A stretch of 23,784 nt of DNA from a virus. This document shows positions 8,452 to 22,221 of this stretch, one piece after another. A program made the translations under genes and the position numbers. The notes under the pieces were generated by a model that was not told the DNA's origin, made no database searches, and saw only the letters and a program-made list of their open reading frames with translations. The stretch covers positions 1 to 23,784 of IMG/VR virus record IMGVR_UViG_3300018416_000117; one strand, written 5' to 3'. Positions within the stretch are counted from its first letter, which is position 1. Each line of letters begins with the position of its first letter.

Positions 8452-9235
8452 CTTTTATATGCTTTTTTTAATTCTTGTTGTTCTATATCTACTTTCTCTT
8501 TTTCAAATGCCAAATAATTTAAACACTGGTAGAGTGGAAGCTCGGTAACTGCATCGAAGTTTCTGACATCTCCTTTAGCGAGTGCATAAATTGATTGATA
8601 CCAACCCCACTTTTTTGCAAATGCATCTCTAGCTGTTGCATATCCTCTTTCTTCAGTTTTTGCTCCAAATATTTCGGTATAGCTGCCAGTAATTCCGTCC
8701 CTAAATCGTAAAAAAAAACCATTGAACTTATTGCTACATCTAATGGCATCTCTTTCATTAGCTCTTGTATTTCTTCATTTACCTTGTAAGGTGAAATAGT
8801 GTATTTATCTTTTGCTTTAAAATTAACTGGTCTATACAATACAGCCATAGCTTTATGTATTTTTTGCCAATCAGAAACGTTAGTTTCAATGTCTACATAT
8901 TCGCCAAGTGTGATGTCGTCGAGCTTTGGTATAAATCCCATATCTACATCTAATAACTTAAATCTTTGTATTAACTTAGGTTTCTCTGCAAACGCTTTAT
9001 TTAATATTTCTAATATTTTGTTAAACTCTTTCAAAGGAATCCTACTAACGTCTCTTAGTGAAACATTACAGAATATTTCTACAAGTTTCATATTTAAGAA
9101 ATCGTTTATCTTATCTTCATCTTCGGCATCCTCTGTTTTATTCTGCTCTATGACTTTCATATACTTTTGGTATTGCCAAAGTTTAATGTCAGATAGAGTT
9201 GTTGGTACTTCTAATTCGATTTGTTTTAGTGCCAT
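8448..9235 (-). CDS. Tail assembly chaperone, -1 frameshift product (GT-like), join(9235..8711, 8711..8448)
   Basis: Slipping back one base after GTT TTT TTT moves the ribosome into a frame that reads LRFRDGITGSYTEIFG and on to 8448, adding 87 residues to the first 175 for a total of 262 aa. The added part contains KWGWYQSIYALAKGDV, NFDAVTELPLYQCLNYLAFE and a charged C-terminal helix, a pattern I recognise from the second chaperone frame of Bacteroidota phages. Upstream this frame is closed by a TGA and has no ATG, GTG or TTG before the conserved part, so it needs the shift. Its TGA overlaps the next ATG. Transcript slippage on the same run is an alternative route to the same fusion. Confidence 0.75.
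8519..9235 (-). CDS. Tail assembly chaperone, zero-frame product (G-like)
   Basis: 238 aa from ATG at 9235 (MALKQIELEVPTTLSDI). It is mainly helical, with no catalytic motif. The frame passes through a run of nine T (bases 8718-8710 read on the minus strand) as GTT TTT TTT TAC and then ends at 8519 after 63 more residues (YDLGTELLAAIPKY through SFHSTSV). The size, its position at the head of the tail operon, and a second open frame entered at the T-run match the lambda G/GT arrangement, in which two chaperone forms are made in unequal amounts and coat the tape measure during assembly. It lies behind the palindromic repeat array at 9354-9421. Confidence 0.75.
   Translation of the reverse strand: MALKQIELEVPTTLSDIKLWQYQKYMKVIEQNKTEDAEDEDKINDFLNMKLVEIFCNVSLRDVSRIPLKEFNKILEILNKAFAEKPKLIQRFKLLDVDMGFIPKLDDITLGEYVDIETNVSDWQKIHKAMAVLYRPVNFKAKDKYTISPYKVNEEIQELMKEMPLDVAISSMVFFYDLGTELLAAIPKYLEQKLKKEDMQQLEMHLQKSGVGINQFMHSLKEMSETSMQLPSFHSTSV
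8710..8718 (-). promoter_or_regulatory. Programmed -1 frameshift site (T9 slippery run)
   Basis: Nine consecutive T on the minus strand, read G GTT TTT TTT TAC, contain the heptamer T TTT TTT. A -1 slip joins the zero frame to a downstream frame with coding-like sequence and no start codon of its own. I see no strong stem-loop just downstream. Confidence 0.7.
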
Positions 9236-9280
9236 ATTATAATTAATAATTTTATTAGTTTTTGTACTCTACTATATTCC

Positions 9281-9299
9281 ACCTGAATATATGTCAGGT
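9281..9299. promoter_or_regulatory. Perfect inverted repeat, possible operator upstream of the tail operon
   Basis: ACCTGAATATATGTCAGGT: six-base arms (ACCTGA and TCAGGT) around a 7-base centre, about 46-64 bases upstream of the chaperone start on the minus strand. The arm length and spacing suit a dimeric repressor or activator. No canonical TAnnTTTG box is seen nearby. Confidence 0.4.
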
Positions 9300-9353
9300 A
9301 TATATGTATTATATATGTATATGTTACATACTATGTATTACATCATGTATATA

Positions 9354-9421
9354 TACACTATGTAATATATTACACTATGCAATATAATACATTATGTAAT
9401 ATAATACACTATGTATATATA
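9354..9421. repeat. Four tandem 17-bp palindromic repeats (iteron/operator-like), array A
   Basis: Units start at 9354, 9371, 9388 and 9405, exactly 17 bp apart. The first three read TACACTATGTAATATAT, TACACTATGCAATATAA and TACATTATGTAATATAA; the fourth begins TACACTATGTATATATA. Each unit together with the bases before it forms the palindrome TATTACA-CTA-TGTAATA or a close variant. A further related half-site (TACATACTATGTA) lies near 9325-9337. The same unit occurs again at 21514-21574. The array fills the gap between a small gene and the tail operon, so it may control late transcription or act as a replication site. Confidence 0.8.
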
Positions 9422-9442
9422 TATATAATATAAATTATCTGA

Positions 9443-9694
9443 CTATTTGTCGGTTGGATTATGTTTATAGTAGTAGAAGGTATATAATTCTATAATCTTA
9501 TCACTCCATTCTTTTAACCCGTAAGTCTCTGGAGAGCGTATTAAATGACCATTGTCATTAACTTCAACATAGTACTCTTTCTGCGTCTTAGGCACGGCAT
9601 ATATCTTTATGCCATTATCAATGCAATAAGATATTGCCTTTAGATAATTTCTGTCATATCGAACTAATCGCTTTTTTCTACCCATTAGATTCAT
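9443..9694 (-). CDS. Small phage protein of unknown function
   Basis: 83 aa if started at ATG 9694, 80 aa if started at ATG 9685 (MGRKKRLVRYDRNYL). The N-terminus is strongly basic and the rest mixed, with several aromatic residues (ELYTFYYYKHN) near the C-terminus. It stands alone between two non-coding gaps: a promoter-like sequence (9694-9724) upstream and the palindromic repeat array downstream. If the promoter is used, the 9685 start is more likely because the longer start lies within the promoter. Small size and basic charge fit a DNA-binding or regulatory role, but nothing specific is recognised. Confidence 0.65.
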   Translation of the reverse strand: MNLMGRKKRLVRYDRNYLKAISYCIDNGIKIYAVPKTQKEYYVEVNDNGHLIRSPETYGLKEWSDKIIELYTFYYYKHNPTDK

Positions 9695-11292: not shown

Positions 11293-11322
11293 CAAATATA
11301 TATAAATATTTCCAACTGACAA
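11293..11322 (-). promoter_or_regulatory. Bacteroidota-type promoter of the second small-gene operon
   Basis: Minus strand: TTG (11322-11320), 19-bp spacer, TATATTTG (11300-11293), a full match to TAnnTTTG. The spacer begins with TCAGTTGGAAAT, which is also found inside the promoter at 14403-14433, so both probably answer to the same regulator. Confidence 0.75.
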
Positions 11323-11861: not shown

Positions 11862-12575
11862 TTAAATTTCTAACTTATTACTTCTAAGTTTGTAATTATA
11901 AACGTCTAATATCTCTTGAATAATATCATATTCATTATTATAAATGTAAATCTTTTTAACGCTCTTACAATTCTTTATTAATCTATCAACATCAAAGTGT
12001 TCATTTTTAAACATTATCTTTTTCAGTGCCCTAACAAATTTAGTAGATACAGCATTTTTTCCTATGACATCTTTTAAACTTAAGCAATTTTCTAAAACCT
12101 GTTCGCCTAAATCCTCATTCAATTCATAAACACCTTTTTTAATTAAAGAAGTAGAACCTTTGTTTAATTTTGAATTGAAAGCGTCTGTAATTCCAGATAG
12201 AGTAAAGTCATCAATAAAATCGTCAATTATTTCTAATAATCTTTTGTATTCCAAATTACCTTTGACTGCATAAGATTTAATATGATTTATAACTTTCCAA
12301 CCTCTTTGATTAGTATTTATATCAACAACACAATCTTTATTTACATTATTATTTATTACATAAAATACAGGTTTCTGTAATTGAATTAACGCTTCTAATC
12401 TATGTTGACCATCAATAACGTAATTATCATTAGTTACAATTATCGGCACAACTAAACCAAATTTAGTAATTGAATTACAAAGTAAATCAACATGCTTTTT
12501 ATCTACATCTCTATTAAATGTCAAGTATTTAAACAAGCCATAGTTTTTAGTTTCGAATATCTCAAATTTTTTCAT
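11862..12575 (-). CDS. ParB/Srx-fold nuclease-like or partition-like protein
   Basis: 237 aa from ATG at 12575. Residues about 15-75 fit a ParB N-terminal domain: FGLVVPIIVTNDNYVIDGQH followed by RLEAL, with the GxxRxxA nucleotide-binding motif as GQHRLEA at 56-62. The remaining 160 residues are helical and lack a clear ParB DNA-binding helix-turn-helix. No ParA is visible, so plasmid-like partition is not implied; stand-alone ParB-fold proteins in phages can be CTPases, nucleases or regulators. It lies within the first small-gene operon. Confidence 0.65.
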   Translation of the reverse strand: MKKFEIFETKNYGLFKYLTFNRDVDKKHVDLLCNSITKFGLVVPIIVTNDNYVIDGQHRLEALIQLQKPVFYVINNNVNKDCVVDINTNQRGWKVINHIKSYAVKGNLEYKRLLEIIDDFIDDFTLSGITDAFNSKLNKGSTSLIKKGVYELNEDLGEQVLENCLSLKDVIGKNAVSTKFVRALKKIMFKNEHFDVDRLIKNCKSVKKIYIYNNEYDIIQEILDVYNYKLRSNKLEI

Positions 12576-14380: not shown

Positions 14381-14402
14381 GGTTTTATTTATTAGTTATT
14401 AA

Positions 14403-14433
14403 CAATATTAGTAAATAATTTCCAACTGACCAA
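14403..14433 (-). promoter_or_regulatory. Promoter of the first small-gene operon, with an internal shared motif
   Basis: Minus strand: TTG (14433-14431), 20-bp spacer, TAATATTG (14410-14403), one base off TAnnTTTG. The spacer carries GTCAGTTGGAAAT; on the plus strand TTTCCAACTGAC is identical at 11309-11320 and 14419-14430. It lies just downstream of the large terminase stop; no terminator separates them. Confidence 0.6.
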
Positions 14434-14449
14434 ATAAATATAAAAAAAA

Positions 14450-16013: not shown

Positions 16014-16339
16014 AAACCTTTATTTATTAATTGGCATATAATAGAGTAATTGCCTAAGTCCTGAAATGTATCTAATAAAGTTTCATTATTACCTTTACGA
16101 TTCTTAATAATTAGATTTTTCCACCTACTTATTTTATCATTCATTCTAAACCATAAACCATGTAAAGCAAAGTCTTTGCCTTCCTTAGTTTCTAAGTTTG
16201 CACCAGTGCTTATATTACTAATGCCATAATCTAATTGCTTTTTTGCAAACAATTCAAATTGCTCTTCAACAATATCTTCATAACTCTTATAAAGATTTGG
16301 AGCTTCCTTTTGTAATAGTTTTCTGTATTTATTCTGCAT
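16001..16339 (-). CDS. Nmad1/DUF1599-like protein (nucleotide-modification-associated)
   Basis: 112 aa from ATG at 16339. The pattern AKKQLDYGISNIS, then LHGLWFRMNDKISRWKNLI and LLDTFQDLGNYSIICQL matches the DUF1599 family (nucleotide modification associated domain 1), an all-helical group with conserved 'DYG..NI', 'R..DK..R' and 'D...DL.NY'. The family is linked by context to modified nucleotides and resembles MazG-type folds; the reaction is not established. It overlaps neighbours on both sides (11 and 13 bases). Confidence 0.75.
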   Translation of the reverse strand: MQNKYRKLLQKEAPNLYKSYEDIVEEQFELFAKKQLDYGISNISTGANLETKEGKDFALHGLWFRMNDKISRWKNLIIKNRKGNNETLLDTFQDLGNYSIICQLINKGLWKE

Positions 16340-16742
16340 ATTCTAATTCTTTATCGACCATATTACTAATAACCATAGTTAATTCATCAACATCTTTATT
16401 GTTTAGATAGTTTACTTTACTTCTTATATATTCTCTTTTAGAGTAATTATCCATTTGATTTATACTATCTATAATGCTTTCCTGCCAAACAATTAAATCT
16501 TTATTGTATTTCTTATATATCTCGTAGTTTCTTAAAGAATGAATTAATGTAGCGTGATTTATATCCCAACCATTTTTTTTGTAAAAGTTTACGATTTGAT
16601 AAAACGTCATTCTTTTGTGATTGTACAATATGTGGTTTAGTAAAGACCTTACTTCAACATATTCTATTTTTCTTATAATCTTAAATATATTTAGCTTTGA
16701 TAGTTTTATTAACTTCTCTGCTATTTGATTTGCTGTAATCAT
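16329..16742 (-). CDS. DnaA C-terminal-like helical DNA-binding protein
   Basis: 137 aa from ATG at 16742, overlapping the preceding TGA (ATGA). Residues about 25-85 recall DnaA domain IV: paired helices with MTFYQIVNFYKKNGWDINHA then TLIHSLRNYEIY, the 'H.T..H..R' signature in relaxed form. There is no AAA+ domain, so it is not a complete initiator. Phages of Bacteroidota often carry such stand-alone domains; it might bind DnaA boxes or regulate transcription. Assignment is moderate. Confidence 0.5.
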   Translation of the reverse strand: MITANQIAEKLIKLSKLNIFKIIRKIEYVEVRSLLNHILYNHKRMTFYQIVNFYKKNGWDINHATLIHSLRNYEIYKKYNKDLIVWQESIIDSINQMDNYSKREYIRSKVNYLNNKDVDELTMVISNMVDKELEYAE

Positions 16743-18591: not shown

Positions 18592-18988
18592 TGTTGTATT
18601 CTTTATAAACTCGTTCTAGTTTTTTATGTAGGTTGTTTTTAAAACAAGACGAACAACTAGTAAGGCTCATTTTTTGATGAAATATTCTATTATATATTCT
18701 AAGCAGTTTTTGTTGCGTTTGTGGATGTACAGTAGATTTTGCCTCTGTAAAATATTTATCTAAATATTCATATTCCTCTTCTGTTAAACATTCTGGTTTA
18801 TAATAAGGGAATAGATAATTTAATTTGGCTTTCCGCTCCTCACACCCGCAATCTTCACCAAGTACCCATTTAGCTACTTTTGCTATTCCAGTAGCTTCTA
18901 GTACTTGTTCTACTGTATCGCCAAGTCCCCTAGCTTTTGTACTTTTTGTACTCTTCTTTGCTTTCTTTTCTGATTTTTTCTTTGGCAT
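18584..18988 (-). CDS. Cys-rich conserved-type phage protein, function unknown
   Basis: 134 aa from ATG at 18988, overlapping the sigma-like gene by 59 bases. The N-terminus is a Lys-rich tail (MPKKKSEKKAKKSTKSTKAR), then GLGDTVEQVLEATGIAKVAK and EDCGCEERKAKLNYLFPY, a combination I associate with Bacteroidota phages and prophages. Later cysteines include SCSSC. The CGC and CSSC pairs suggest metal binding. The next gene encodes a nuclease-like protein, so a DNA-related role is likely but unproven. Confidence 0.65.
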   Translation of the reverse strand: MPKKKSEKKAKKSTKSTKARGLGDTVEQVLEATGIAKVAKWVLGEDCGCEERKAKLNYLFPYYKPECLTEEEYEYLDKYFTEAKSTVHPQTQQKLLRIYNRIFHQKMSLTSCSSCFKNNLHKKLERVYKEYNND

Positions 18989-19499
18989 TTGTTAATGTGT
19001 TAAATATTGAACTTAAACTTATTTTTGTCTCTTTACTTATATCTCGCATACTCATATCGGTATTTAAATATAACTTAGTAAGCTTCTTATCGTACCAATA
19101 CCATTTGTCAATTATACTATCTATTTTATTGTATAATGCCTCTAAGTTAACTTTTTTTTTGTAATTATCATTATAAGCATCTATATCAAAAGTTATTTGA
19201 TTCATAATATAATTAAACTTTTCATTGTCTATATCTGAGAATAATACTGTTTTTTTATTTTTATTATAATTAGTAAACTTGCTGTAATATAAGTTTCTTA
19301 ACGTAATGTATATGTAAAATGTATTAATTTCAGTTTCATTGTACATAATTCTTTTTACATCTTTTGTGTAATCGTACATTCTTAAATACATATCTTGTAC
19401 TAACTCATTGGCATCACTATTATTCAATTTAAAACTCTTAGCCATATTTAACCATTCGTTATGCCTTTTAGCTAATATGTCAAGTATCTTAGAGCTCAT
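18930..19499 (-). CDS. Sigma-70/ECF-like factor (phage-encoded)
   Basis: 189 aa from ATG at 19499; a TTG two codons upstream is less likely. Residues about 28-45 (NSDANELVQDMYLRMYDY) resemble sigma region 2, where 'A.DLVQ..FLR.Y' contacts RNA polymerase. Residues 148-178 (DMSMRDISKETKISLSSIFN and a following helix) look like the region 4 helix-turn-helix that reads the -35 element. The linker is long and variable. It could redirect host RNA polymerase to phage promoters. It overlaps the VRR-NUC gene by 11 bases. Alternatives are a non-sigma HTH regulator or terminase-like HTH protein. Confidence 0.55.
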   Translation of the reverse strand: MSSKILDILAKRHNEWLNMAKSFKLNNSDANELVQDMYLRMYDYTKDVKRIMYNETEINTFYIYITLRNLYYSKFTNYNKNKKTVLFSDIDNEKFNYIMNQITFDIDAYNDNYKKKVNLEALYNKIDSIIDKWYWYDKKLTKLYLNTDMSMRDISKETKISLSSIFNTLTNAKEKIRKESKEEYKKYKS

Positions 19500-19779
19500 C
19501 TTCAAGTATTATTTCTAATAACCTATCAAATGAATTTGCAATATCGTATTGACCCTGCCAATCGTTTTGAAACTTAACCTCGTCTGGAGTTAGCTTTTGT
19601 TGAGTAGTCGGCTTATCTCCGTCTTTAATTTCTATTAAATAGTTTTTGCCTTTAAACCCAACTATAATGTCTGGAGCACCTTTTCCGAGTTGATGAGTAT
19701 GGAGGACAGAACATCCTATCTCTCTAAGTTGTGAGACAATCTTTTTTTGGTTAGCATCTACTCTAGCTCGCTTTCGCAT
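19489..19779 (-). CDS. VRR-NUC domain nuclease
   Basis: 96 aa from ATG at 19779, overlapping the primase-helicase gene by 22 bases. The whole protein is one VRR-NUC domain: a helical start, then KGAPDIIVGFKGKNYLIEIK with D37, E50 and K52 of the PD-(D/E)XK core, and Q60/Q61 on the following helix. In phages these stand-alone nucleases sit beside helicases and probably process forks or junctions. Length fits the family. Confidence 0.85.
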   Translation of the reverse strand: MRKRARVDANQKKIVSQLREIGCSVLHTHQLGKGAPDIIVGFKGKNYLIEIKDGDKPTTQQKLTPDEVKFQNDWQGQYDIANSFDRLLEIILEDEL

Positions 19780-21485
19780 CTGATATTATCTAATTCATCA
19801 AAGGGCGTTTGATTATTAAAATAATATCTATTTGATTTTCTGTGGTATGTTATGCCTTCAATATCTTGTGGATAACCTACCAATTTTTGTTTTTTAATCT
19901 TTTGACTGCCAAATGTAACTTCAGTATTACTAAAATCTAAAGCTCTATTTGGTCTCCATACAAAAAGTACATTATCACTTTTATCAGCAAACGTTCCACC
20001 ACCTTTTATTGAATTAACATCTGGTTTTCTATACCTTCCGTTGTCATCCTTTTGTGGTGTAACTTGGTGTGCAACTAAATGAACAGAAATTTTATTCTCT
20101 ACGGCAAACCTTTTTAATTCACTCATAAATCTACTTATGTATAAATCTTCTCTTTCACCTCGTTGCATCCTGTGTTGTACAGTATTGTATGGGTCAATAA
20201 TCAATGAACGTATTCCTTTTGTCTTAACTAAAAACTTAGCTCTTTCAAATATGTCTTCTAATTTATAACTTTTTTTTGGATATATAATAAAAAAATGTTT
20301 TTTCATAAACTCCATGCCTTGTTTAAACTCCTTTTCACTCATATAATTATTTTGATAAAAAGGGTCTGAACTTTTGCCAATGTAACATTCTATTAAGTCA
20401 TGGAAAAAATCATTTATTGGCATATTCTCTGGACTAAATACTGCAAACTTCCAACCATCGTGAAATGCCTTTAAAACTGATAGTTGATTTAAAAACATAC
20501 TTTTTCCTTCATTTTGATACCCTGTCCATATATTAACTTCACCGTTTCTCCAAGTCCATGCCCTATCAATAGCACTTATATGAGTTGTAGAACCTCGCTC
20601 TTGTCCGTTCTTATAACCGTCCAACATACTATCATAAATATCATCAACGGCAAAAATACCTTCTACTTTTGGTACTCTAGCTTGTTTAAATCTATACTGT
20701 AATGATTCTATACCTTCATTTAACAAAACTTCGTTAGCATCTTTATAAGGATTTGTGTCAATAATTCTAATCTTTTCAGCACCAATACGCCTTATTAACT
20801 CTTCTTCTAAGTATCTTCCGTTTTCGTCATTGTCAGTACATAAGTAAACTACTTTTGCATTATCAAATACTTCATAAGAATTTGTAATACATTCTAGTTT
20901 CTTGTCTAAGTTTTTATCTCTGGCATTTGGTGCACCCATATTAACAGATGTATGCCAAGTGAAACCTGCTACTTCCCAACTAAGTGAATCTAATTCTCCT
21001 TCACATAGTATTACAAAATCTTGATTCACTACCCTATCGTAATTAAATATTATGGGTTGACTATTTCTTGACTGTGTAAATGTTTTGTTTTCAATGCCTC
21101 TTGTTTTATAATTTACAAGTTCATTATTTTTTAAGTAAGGAAACACAACACTTCTGCCATCTTTTGTAGTAGTAATCTTATTGTTTTCTATAACTTCATT
21201 AGTTATGCCTCTATCATTAAGAAACTTTATGGCACTTGAACTTATTTTCTTTAAGTTGTTTGTAGTTGGTTTAGTATATATTTTTTCTTGTATCATATTG
21301 TTGTTAGGGTTTACAGAACCGTTCCAACCACAATGGTGGCAGTGATATAGTCCATCGTCTAGATTTATTGACAAAGATGTATCTCTTTTGTTTTTTCTAG
21401 TATGACTACATTTTGGGCACTTTACTTTCTGTTGAGAGTATTTGCCTTTGGGTGCGATTCCAATTTTTCTAAAGTTTTCTTGCAT
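19758..21485 (-). CDS. Bifunctional primase-helicase (T7 gp4/Twinkle-like)
   Basis: 575 aa from ATG at 21485 (MQENFRKIGIAPKGKYSQQK); a longer in-frame GTG start would run into the repeat cluster and is rejected. Zinc site C23/C26 and C49/C52; TOPRIM fold with E162 (VILCEGELDS) and D217/D219 (CTDNDENG); RecA/DnaB-like motor with Walker A GYQNEGKS at 321-328, E352 (FSPENMP), Walker B D430 (LIIDPYN) and an arginine/histidine segment VAHQVTPQ. It would unwind DNA and lay primers at the fork. No DNA polymerase gene is seen in the window, so the host enzyme or one elsewhere in the genome may be used. Confidence 0.9.
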   Translation of the reverse strand: MQENFRKIGIAPKGKYSQQKVKCPKCSHTRKNKRDTSLSINLDDGLYHCHHCGWNGSVNPNNNMIQEKIYTKPTTNNLKKISSSAIKFLNDRGITNEVIENNKITTTKDGRSVVFPYLKNNELVNYKTRGIENKTFTQSRNSQPIIFNYDRVVNQDFVILCEGELDSLSWEVAGFTWHTSVNMGAPNARDKNLDKKLECITNSYEVFDNAKVVYLCTDNDENGRYLEEELIRRIGAEKIRIIDTNPYKDANEVLLNEGIESLQYRFKQARVPKVEGIFAVDDIYDSMLDGYKNGQERGSTTHISAIDRAWTWRNGEVNIWTGYQNEGKSMFLNQLSVLKAFHDGWKFAVFSPENMPINDFFHDLIECYIGKSSDPFYQNNYMSEKEFKQGMEFMKKHFFIIYPKKSYKLEDIFERAKFLVKTKGIRSLIIDPYNTVQHRMQRGEREDLYISRFMSELKRFAVENKISVHLVAHQVTPQKDDNGRYRKPDVNSIKGGGTFADKSDNVLFVWRPNRALDFSNTEVTFGSQKIKKQKLVGYPQDIEGITYHRKSNRYYFNNQTPFDELDNIRCESELE

Positions 21486-21513
21486 AGTAATTTTTTTTGT
21501 GTATATTTTATAA

Positions 21514-21574
21514 TACACTATGTAATATAATACACTATGTATTATTTATTTATATATTACACTATGTATTACAT
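21514..21574. repeat. 17-bp palindromic repeats (iteron/operator-like), array B
   Basis: TACACTATGTAATATAA at 21514-21530, a second unit starting TACACTATGTATTA at 21531, and a third at 21558-21574. Spacing is 17 then 27 bp. The sequence is the same as in array A (9354-9421), with the palindrome TTACA-CTA-TGTAA. The array fills the gap between the winged-helix gene and the primase-helicase gene, overlapping the former's last codons. Position next to an HTH protein fits an origin or an autoregulated operator. Confidence 0.8.
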
Positions 21575-21874
21575 AGAACTGACATTCTTGGCACTTGGGC
21601 TTACATAAATCTTACGCTCTTTGCCGTCATTTCCTAAGCTTTTTGTAACTCTTTTTATATAATCTTTGTTTTCTAAACTCTTTAAAATTCTATATAAAGT
21701 TCTATCGTTTAAATTTAATGCCATGCATATACTATCATTTGAGGCATAACAATAACCTTTTTTAATCGAAAGTGAATCTATATAAGATAATACAGTAGCT
21801 TCTGATATTGATAAATTTGTGTTCATAAATGCTAAATTAATGTTTACGTATTTTGTGTTTTTTCTTTGTGTCAT
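21569..21874 (-). CDS. Winged-helix DNA-binding protein (replication initiator/regulator type)
   Basis: 101 aa from ATG at 21874. Residues about 20-78 form a winged helix: LSISEATVLSYIDSLSIKKG, then SNDSICMALNLNDRTLYRIL as the recognition helix and SLENKDYIKRVTK as the wing, as in the HTH_36 group and plasmid/phage replication initiators. The rest is a short tail. The gene ends inside a cluster of palindromic repeats that its product could bind. Binding partner is inferred from location. Confidence 0.7.
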   Translation of the reverse strand: MTQRKNTKYVNINLAFMNTNLSISEATVLSYIDSLSIKKGYCYASNDSICMALNLNDRTLYRILKSLENKDYIKRVTKSLGNDGKERKIYVSPSAKNVSSM

Positions 21875-21948: not shown

Positions 21949-22221
21949 TTAAAATGGTAAATCTGGTGTCGGTAAAGACGGTGCAGGTGCTGATGCAGTA
22001 GCTTGAGTTTCTTTATTCTCAGGCACATATTCATCAATCCATACATTGTGAGTTTTCCCATACTGGTCTGTGGCTTTTTTGTTTGCAATAGTAAGCTTTA
22101 AATAACGCTTACCTTTATAATCAAACCAAGCATCCTTAACTTTGTCTTCACTAATAGTAAAGTTTACCATGTCGTAGTTTCCAACTTTTTTTCCACTACC
22201 AACAAATTTTCTTTCATTCAT
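21949..22221 (-). CDS. Small SSB-like protein
   Basis: 90 aa from ATG at 22221, 14 nt after the ERF stop. The core has strand-rich segments (KRYLKLTIANKKATDQYGKT, then HNVWIDEYVP) and the C-terminus is a Pro/Ala-rich tail ending PDLPF, the acidic-hydrophobic tip that bacterial SSB uses to recruit partner proteins. It is shorter than a normal OB-fold SSB. Proximity to ERF and primase-helicase supports single-strand binding; the fold is inferred. Confidence 0.65.
   Translation of the reverse strand: MNERKFVGSGKKVGNYDMVNFTISEDKVKDAWFDYKGKRYLKLTIANKKATDQYGKTHNVWIDEYVPENKETQATASAPAPSLPTPDLPF

Follow-up and report, generated by a model that had tools for sequence, protein, structure and literature searches.

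Paired arrays of palindromic 17-bp repeats with origin-like traits, and their candidate winged-helix reader, in a group of uncultured marine phages

The window, i.e. the whole stretch of DNA analyzed in this study (a virus record of 23,784 bp), represents part of the genome of a marine Bacteroidetes-type phage, with nearly all of its genes located on the minus strand. These encode a holin, an Erf annealing protein, a winged-helix protein, a primase-helicase, a VRR/Hjc-like nuclease, a sigma-like protein, an exonuclease and terminases, accompanied by small genes and a structural block. One of the small genes (21949-22221) is SSB-like by position; its product gave no family match. The nearest isolate, as judged by the helicase (49%), is Tenacibaculum phage JQ, in which an HTH_36 match was absent from the four nearby genes tested and a repeat search revealed no array of the kind described below. 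The bacterial genomes scanned for the helicase contained no relative and so pointed to no host or prophage.

Two gaps between genes of the window carry clusters of short repeats, designated array A and array B. The features of both regions are as follows:

8519-9235, minus strand: first gene of a structural-type block downstream of array A (phrog_32199, no assigned function)
9279-9297, plus strand: P-like element in the opposite orientation, between array A and the structural genes
9325-9349, minus strand: weaker units of array A (TACATACTATGTA at 9325-9337 and TACATCATGTA at 9339-9349)
9354-9415, minus strand: array A, four 11-bp cores of the TACATAGTGTA type on the coding strand
9439-9457, minus strand: P-like element CCAACCGACAAATAGTCAG, upstream of array A
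9443-9694, minus strand: conserved small gene (83 aa) directly upstream of array A
19758-21485, minus strand: primase-helicase gene (Toprim and DnaB_C domains) with a conserved ATG start; a GTG-started ORF extends to 21518
21486-21568, minus strand: array B, the entire 83-bp gap from the stop codon of the winged-helix gene to the helicase ATG
21569-21874, minus strand: gene of a 101-aa winged-helix protein (Pfam HTH_36; recognition helix, residues 57-69), the proposed reader of the arrays
21577-21598, minus strand: P element CCAAGTGCCAAGAATGTCAGTT, within the last codons of the winged-helix gene

The most likely start of the primase-helicase gene is the conserved ATG near 21485, and the whole gap 21486-21568 was therefore counted as array B. 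Seven TACAYTATGYA sites were found in the window, all of them within the two arrays and not at many unrelated sites, while 200 dinucleotide shuffles contained a mean of 0.15 copies (maximum 2) and in no case a pair spaced by 17 bp. The original prediction of four units with exact 17-bp spacing at 9354-9421 is borne out by the cores of array A, which start at 9354, 9371, 9388 and 9405, but the array proved to be longer, with weaker units from 9325 (TRF: 9336-9422, period 17, 5.2 copies). The three units expected in array B are present at 21514, 21531 and 21558, although separated by steps of 17 and 27 bp and not uniformly by 17 bp. The proposed palindrome TTACA-CTA-TGTAA holds as a consensus, but the full TTACACTATGTAA sequence (13 of 13 bases) is matched by no single unit in either array. 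The G+C content of the two gaps is 18% and 14%, compared with 29% for the window, and both were correctly described as lacking a TAnnTTTG promoter, since no such box was found on either strand. Array B does precede the primase-helicase gene; the "tail operon" placed after array A is not proven, because the first gene of that block has no assigned function.

When pairs of units in 17-bp register were searched for, 66 stretches were obtained, many of them on contigs encoding the same helicase. In relatives whose helicases are 73-98% identical, array B is nearly always located between the winged-helix stop codon and the helicase ATG, and array A precedes the orthologue of the gene at 8519-9235. 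Relatives on circular contigs of 32-36 kb have both arrays at the same two places, with a B-to-A distance of 11.6-13.1 kb (six circular genomes); the motif is thus present at matching positions in related phages. Among the relatives TACACTATGTA occurs in 146 copies, and any other TACANNNTGTA word in at most 11.

Thirty contigs were read whole for comparison of the motifs. The repeat varies between clades but matches within a genome: TACATAGTGTA is the repeat in three clades, whereas both arrays contain TACATARAGTA in G005, TACACTTAGTGTA in G017, ATACAATGTAT in G022 and TATAACTATATA in G019-21. The clade motifs cluster in A as well as in B, and the C and G positions of the palindrome are retained within clades. 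In most contigs array A matches its own array B better than dinucleotide shuffles do (the score being reached by 0-1 of 100); the exception is G018, where the arrays agree only partly and 9 of 100 shuffles reach the score. When whole contigs were scanned, the stretch most similar to A was B in all 18 of the contigs, a result which is weak for the pure-AT clades, since low complexity alone might produce it. The joint switch of motif at two loci 12 kb apart points to a common trans-acting reader, and the original prediction of one protein for both arrays is supported by this concerted change in sequence.

In order to find the protein that tracks the motif, the motif distances of the arrays were compared with the distances of 13 core proteins, with control for average protein distance (partial Mantel). 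For array A, the winged-helix protein was the best of the 13 (r 0.84, partial 0.51, p 0.001; phylogenetic dependence is only partly removed by the Mantel permutation). The outcome was the same with another implementation and with 15 representatives. Its gene lies 12 kb from the array whose motif it tracks, so linkage is unable to explain the match. The motif of A is not tracked by the gene adjoining the array (partial -0.01), by TerS, or by the sigma-like factor (-0.04). The strongest signal of any segment for array A came from the recognition helix (0.36-0.41). In the TACATARAGTA clade, the winged-helix protein has six private substitutions (residues 38, 43, 50, 57, 64 and 70), two of them in the recognition helix, while sister clades have one or two. 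The 101-aa HTH_36 protein is therefore the best candidate for the reader of both arrays, as far as covariation between sequences can indicate, and the suggestion that the protein encoded beside array B is the controller gains in weight.

The other controller suggested, the sigma-like factor, was rejected as a reader, and the arrays as a sigma promoter element: its covariation with the motif is about zero, and hardly any variation is seen in its region-4-like helix across clades whose motifs differ. This protein (18930-19505 and orthologues) is ECF-sigma-like, and the helix concerned (ISLSSIFNTL) is conserved in nearly all relatives. Two further candidates were discarded, namely (i) the ParB-like gene 11862-12575, considered as the reader of a ParB/parS-type centromere, which is absent from almost all array-bearing relatives, and (ii) the gene 16329-16742, DnaA domain IV-like by eye, which has no Pfam support and was not detected in several array-bearing clades.

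The winged-helix protein has a length of 96-103 aa in all relatives; HTH_36 was matched by 15 of the 15 family members tested, and the best profile matches are phage replication initiators. The AlphaFold2 model (pLDDT 86) contains a recognition helix (residues 57-69) and a wing (73-91). A Foldseek search of solved folds placed the N-terminal domains of plasmid initiators (4pql, 4pt7 and 5kbj) among the best matches, with MarR regulators close behind, and many winged-helix proteins tie with the 101-aa protein in VIA-align. The modeled fold by itself thus cannot separate an initiator from a regulator. The C-terminal domain that follows the HTH in the compared initiators (218-315 aa) is absent from the 101-aa protein, which is therefore said to work like a full initiator and is not classed as one.

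The position of the gene was compared with that of other HTH_36 initiator genes. Those of Cellulophaga phage phi39:1, Leuconostoc phage LLC-1, Staphylococcus phage 77 and Fusobacterium phage FNU4 are located before a helicase or loader-like gene (DnaB helicase in phi39:1). In phi39:1 the HTH codons are followed by three palindromic repeats of 21-22 bp, and in the other three phages by repeats and then by AT-rich DNA containing TACAAGTATTAAT. By analogy, array B has the layout of these initiator genes, with the gene ending ahead of the repeats: the HTH_36 domain, the position just before a helicase or loader gene, the repeats after the HTH codons and the adjacent AT-rich DNA are shared. The differences are that the phage initiators (phi39:1 gp41, LLC-1, 77) have 218-315 aa with a C-terminal domain, that their iterons are coding, whereas array B comes after the gene, and that phi39:1 has one cluster, as opposed to two here. 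A similar comparison may be made with plasmids. The initiator of plasmid pPR9 is reported to have an HTH_36 N-domain, with its own origin (staphylococcal plasmid review, PMC5703833), and the RepA_N/pPR9-type initiators (PMC5703833) and PLE RepA (PMC7145576) have in common with the present system a winged-helix N-domain binding repeats in or beside the rep gene. Unlike the phage arrays, they belong to plasmid or satellite replicons with one cluster; the 101-aa protein, for its part, lacks the C-terminal domain and gave no RepA_N match in the Pfam scan (HTH_36 being matched instead), only the fold being alike.

The 13-mer TACAAGTATTAAT itself occurs after the HTH and repeat codons in LLC-1, iLp1308, phage 77 and FNU4 (L330, L334, L335 and L336), phages with distant hosts, where it encodes NTSIN or TSIN; it is a possible conserved unwinding element.

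Several other elements were observed near the arrays and elsewhere in the window. The P element has a 16/19 match to the iteron of the LLC-1 initiator, in the window and in G002 only. As a universal HTH_36 iteron it was rejected, having only chance-level matches in distant clades, and it is kept as a lead. The palindrome CCAACTGYCA-N4/5-TGRCAG, conserved in relatives, is found on both sides of array A in opposite orientations (9279-9297 and 9439-9457), and again ahead of array B, within the winged-helix gene (21577-21598). In the copy that follows A (9279-9297) there are compensatory changes, its hairpin being CCTGA..TCAGG in the window and AACTGA..TCAGTT in relatives. At about 9265-9275, CAGTTGG is followed by a conserved RTACAAA box, where other phage promoters have TAnnTTTG; it may serve the sigma-like protein of the phage as a late promoter. 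The sequence GTCAGTTGGAAAT (11293-11322 and 14401-14435; coding strand minus) is located about 12 bp before a TAnnTTTG or similar box in gaps upstream of small genes and is repeated in G002 and G005; it has the appearance of a common early promoter or operator. Finally, TGAATTCAATA (9700, 11434 and 22914) lies at or beside promoter-like boxes upstream of three genes.

A precedent for two arrays read by one protein is provided by phage SPP1, in which gp38 binds two clusters of repeats separated by 12-13 kb, one of them inside the initiator gene and the other in an intergenic gap of the late region; its oriR has been proposed to stall the fork and thereby start concatemer synthesis (PMC6316719, PMC3485210). 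Our comparison with gp38 was made through the published description. The phages studied here resemble SPP1 in having (i) two clusters of direct repeats with AT-rich DNA at a similar distance, (ii) one cluster at the candidate initiator gene, the other being intergenic and close to late genes, and (iii) helper genes with comparable functions (annealing protein, exonuclease, helicase and resolvase-like nuclease). They differ in that array B is located just after the gene and not within it, the candidate initiator is a lone winged helix of 101 aa, a separate helicase loader was not found, and the helicase is a fused primase-helicase; the origin role proposed here is based on sequence. When duplex stability was calculated in 80-bp windows, no window was less stable than A and B in 6 of 10 contigs, and in 9 of 10 the two arrays ranked among the four least stable. 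Turning points of the GC and fourfold-site strand skew were located near A in only two or three of six genomes.

The paired origin put forward in the original prediction thus fits the anatomy, with SPP1 as a precedent (PMC6316719, PMC3485210). We lean, with modest confidence, towards the view that A and B are paired origin-like iteron arrays of one protein, probably the winged-helix protein, and are comparable to oriL and oriR of SPP1. The protein would coat the palindromic repeats at array B, taken as the replication origin, where the very AT-rich DNA would open and the primase-helicase encoded by the next gene would be loaded. Array A, located in the long gap that precedes the structural block, would be a second origin-like site. 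Protein bound there could stop the fork and trigger a switch to concatemer synthesis by the phage exonuclease, the Erf annealing protein and the VRR-type nuclease, as proposed for oriR of SPP1; alternatively, it could start a second round of replication.

The main alternative is that the arrays are operators, to which a winged-helix regulator binds cooperatively, switching the phage from early replication to late structural expression. The protein indeed consists of a single winged-helix domain (about 100 aa), for which MarR/PadR-type folds and MotA of phage T4 score equal to initiators, and each array is directly upstream of a gene and lacks TAnnTTTG. Ahead of the first structural gene, array A is followed by a CAGTTGG element, which is conserved, and by TACAAA. 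Promoter room is scarce, however: array B fills the whole 83-bp gap, which is only 28-30 bp long in G025 and G027. The promoter geometries also differ, the putative late promoter lying some 100 bp downstream of A, and B abutting the start codon. Moreover, the winged-helix gene, like its counterparts in other HTH_36 phages, occupies the slot of an initiator gene ahead of the helicase. We consider a purely operator function possible, though rather unlikely. Replication and transcription functions could nevertheless coexist. A lone winged-helix domain without a loader part might act as initiator and late-operon switch through both arrays, a suggestion that we regard as tentative and somewhat doubtful. 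In such a case, the protein would open the DNA at B and occupy A, linking replication to late expression, and its DNA code would have been replaced repeatedly (at least five clearly distinct motifs), the arrays staying in step.

It may also be supposed that another phage or host protein, involved in replication, partition or packaging, reads the arrays, and that the winged-helix protein merely evolves at a similar rate. The partial correlation of the exonuclease gene with the motif is significant too (0.32-0.45), and winged-helix residues and array B sometimes mismatch: among AT-rich clades, G030 and G011 have identical B arrays and different recognition-helix residues, and L066 and L067 retain the NDRT helix, while TACATAGTGTA is missing and the gap is pure AT. 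Against this stand the first rank of the winged-helix protein among the 13 core proteins for the distant array A, the failure of TerS and the sigma-like protein to track that array, the absence of the ParB-like gene from almost all array-bearing relatives, and the lack of a match to gene 16329-16742 in several array-bearing clades, which together make a different reader improbable. The idea that the arrays are mere AT-rich unwinding DNA or chance repeats with no sequence-specific reader agrees with their low duplex stability and with the nearly pure AT composition of the B gap in several clades, but the C/G positions kept within clades, the switch of both arrays to the same new motif and the excess of TACACTATGTA over other TACANNNTGTA words leave it hardly credible overall, being largely refuted for GC-containing clades, though not for pure-AT ones.

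No earlier description of such paired arrays was found in the literature searched, the coverage of which was partial. For this group of uncultured marine phages the arrays offer a candidate origin; they also suggest that the two-origin plan of SPP1, known from a phage of a Gram-positive host, may be used by Bacteroidetes-type phages as well. Moreover, protein and motif form matched pairs in many clades, which would constitute a natural series for the study of changes in winged-helix DNA specificity.
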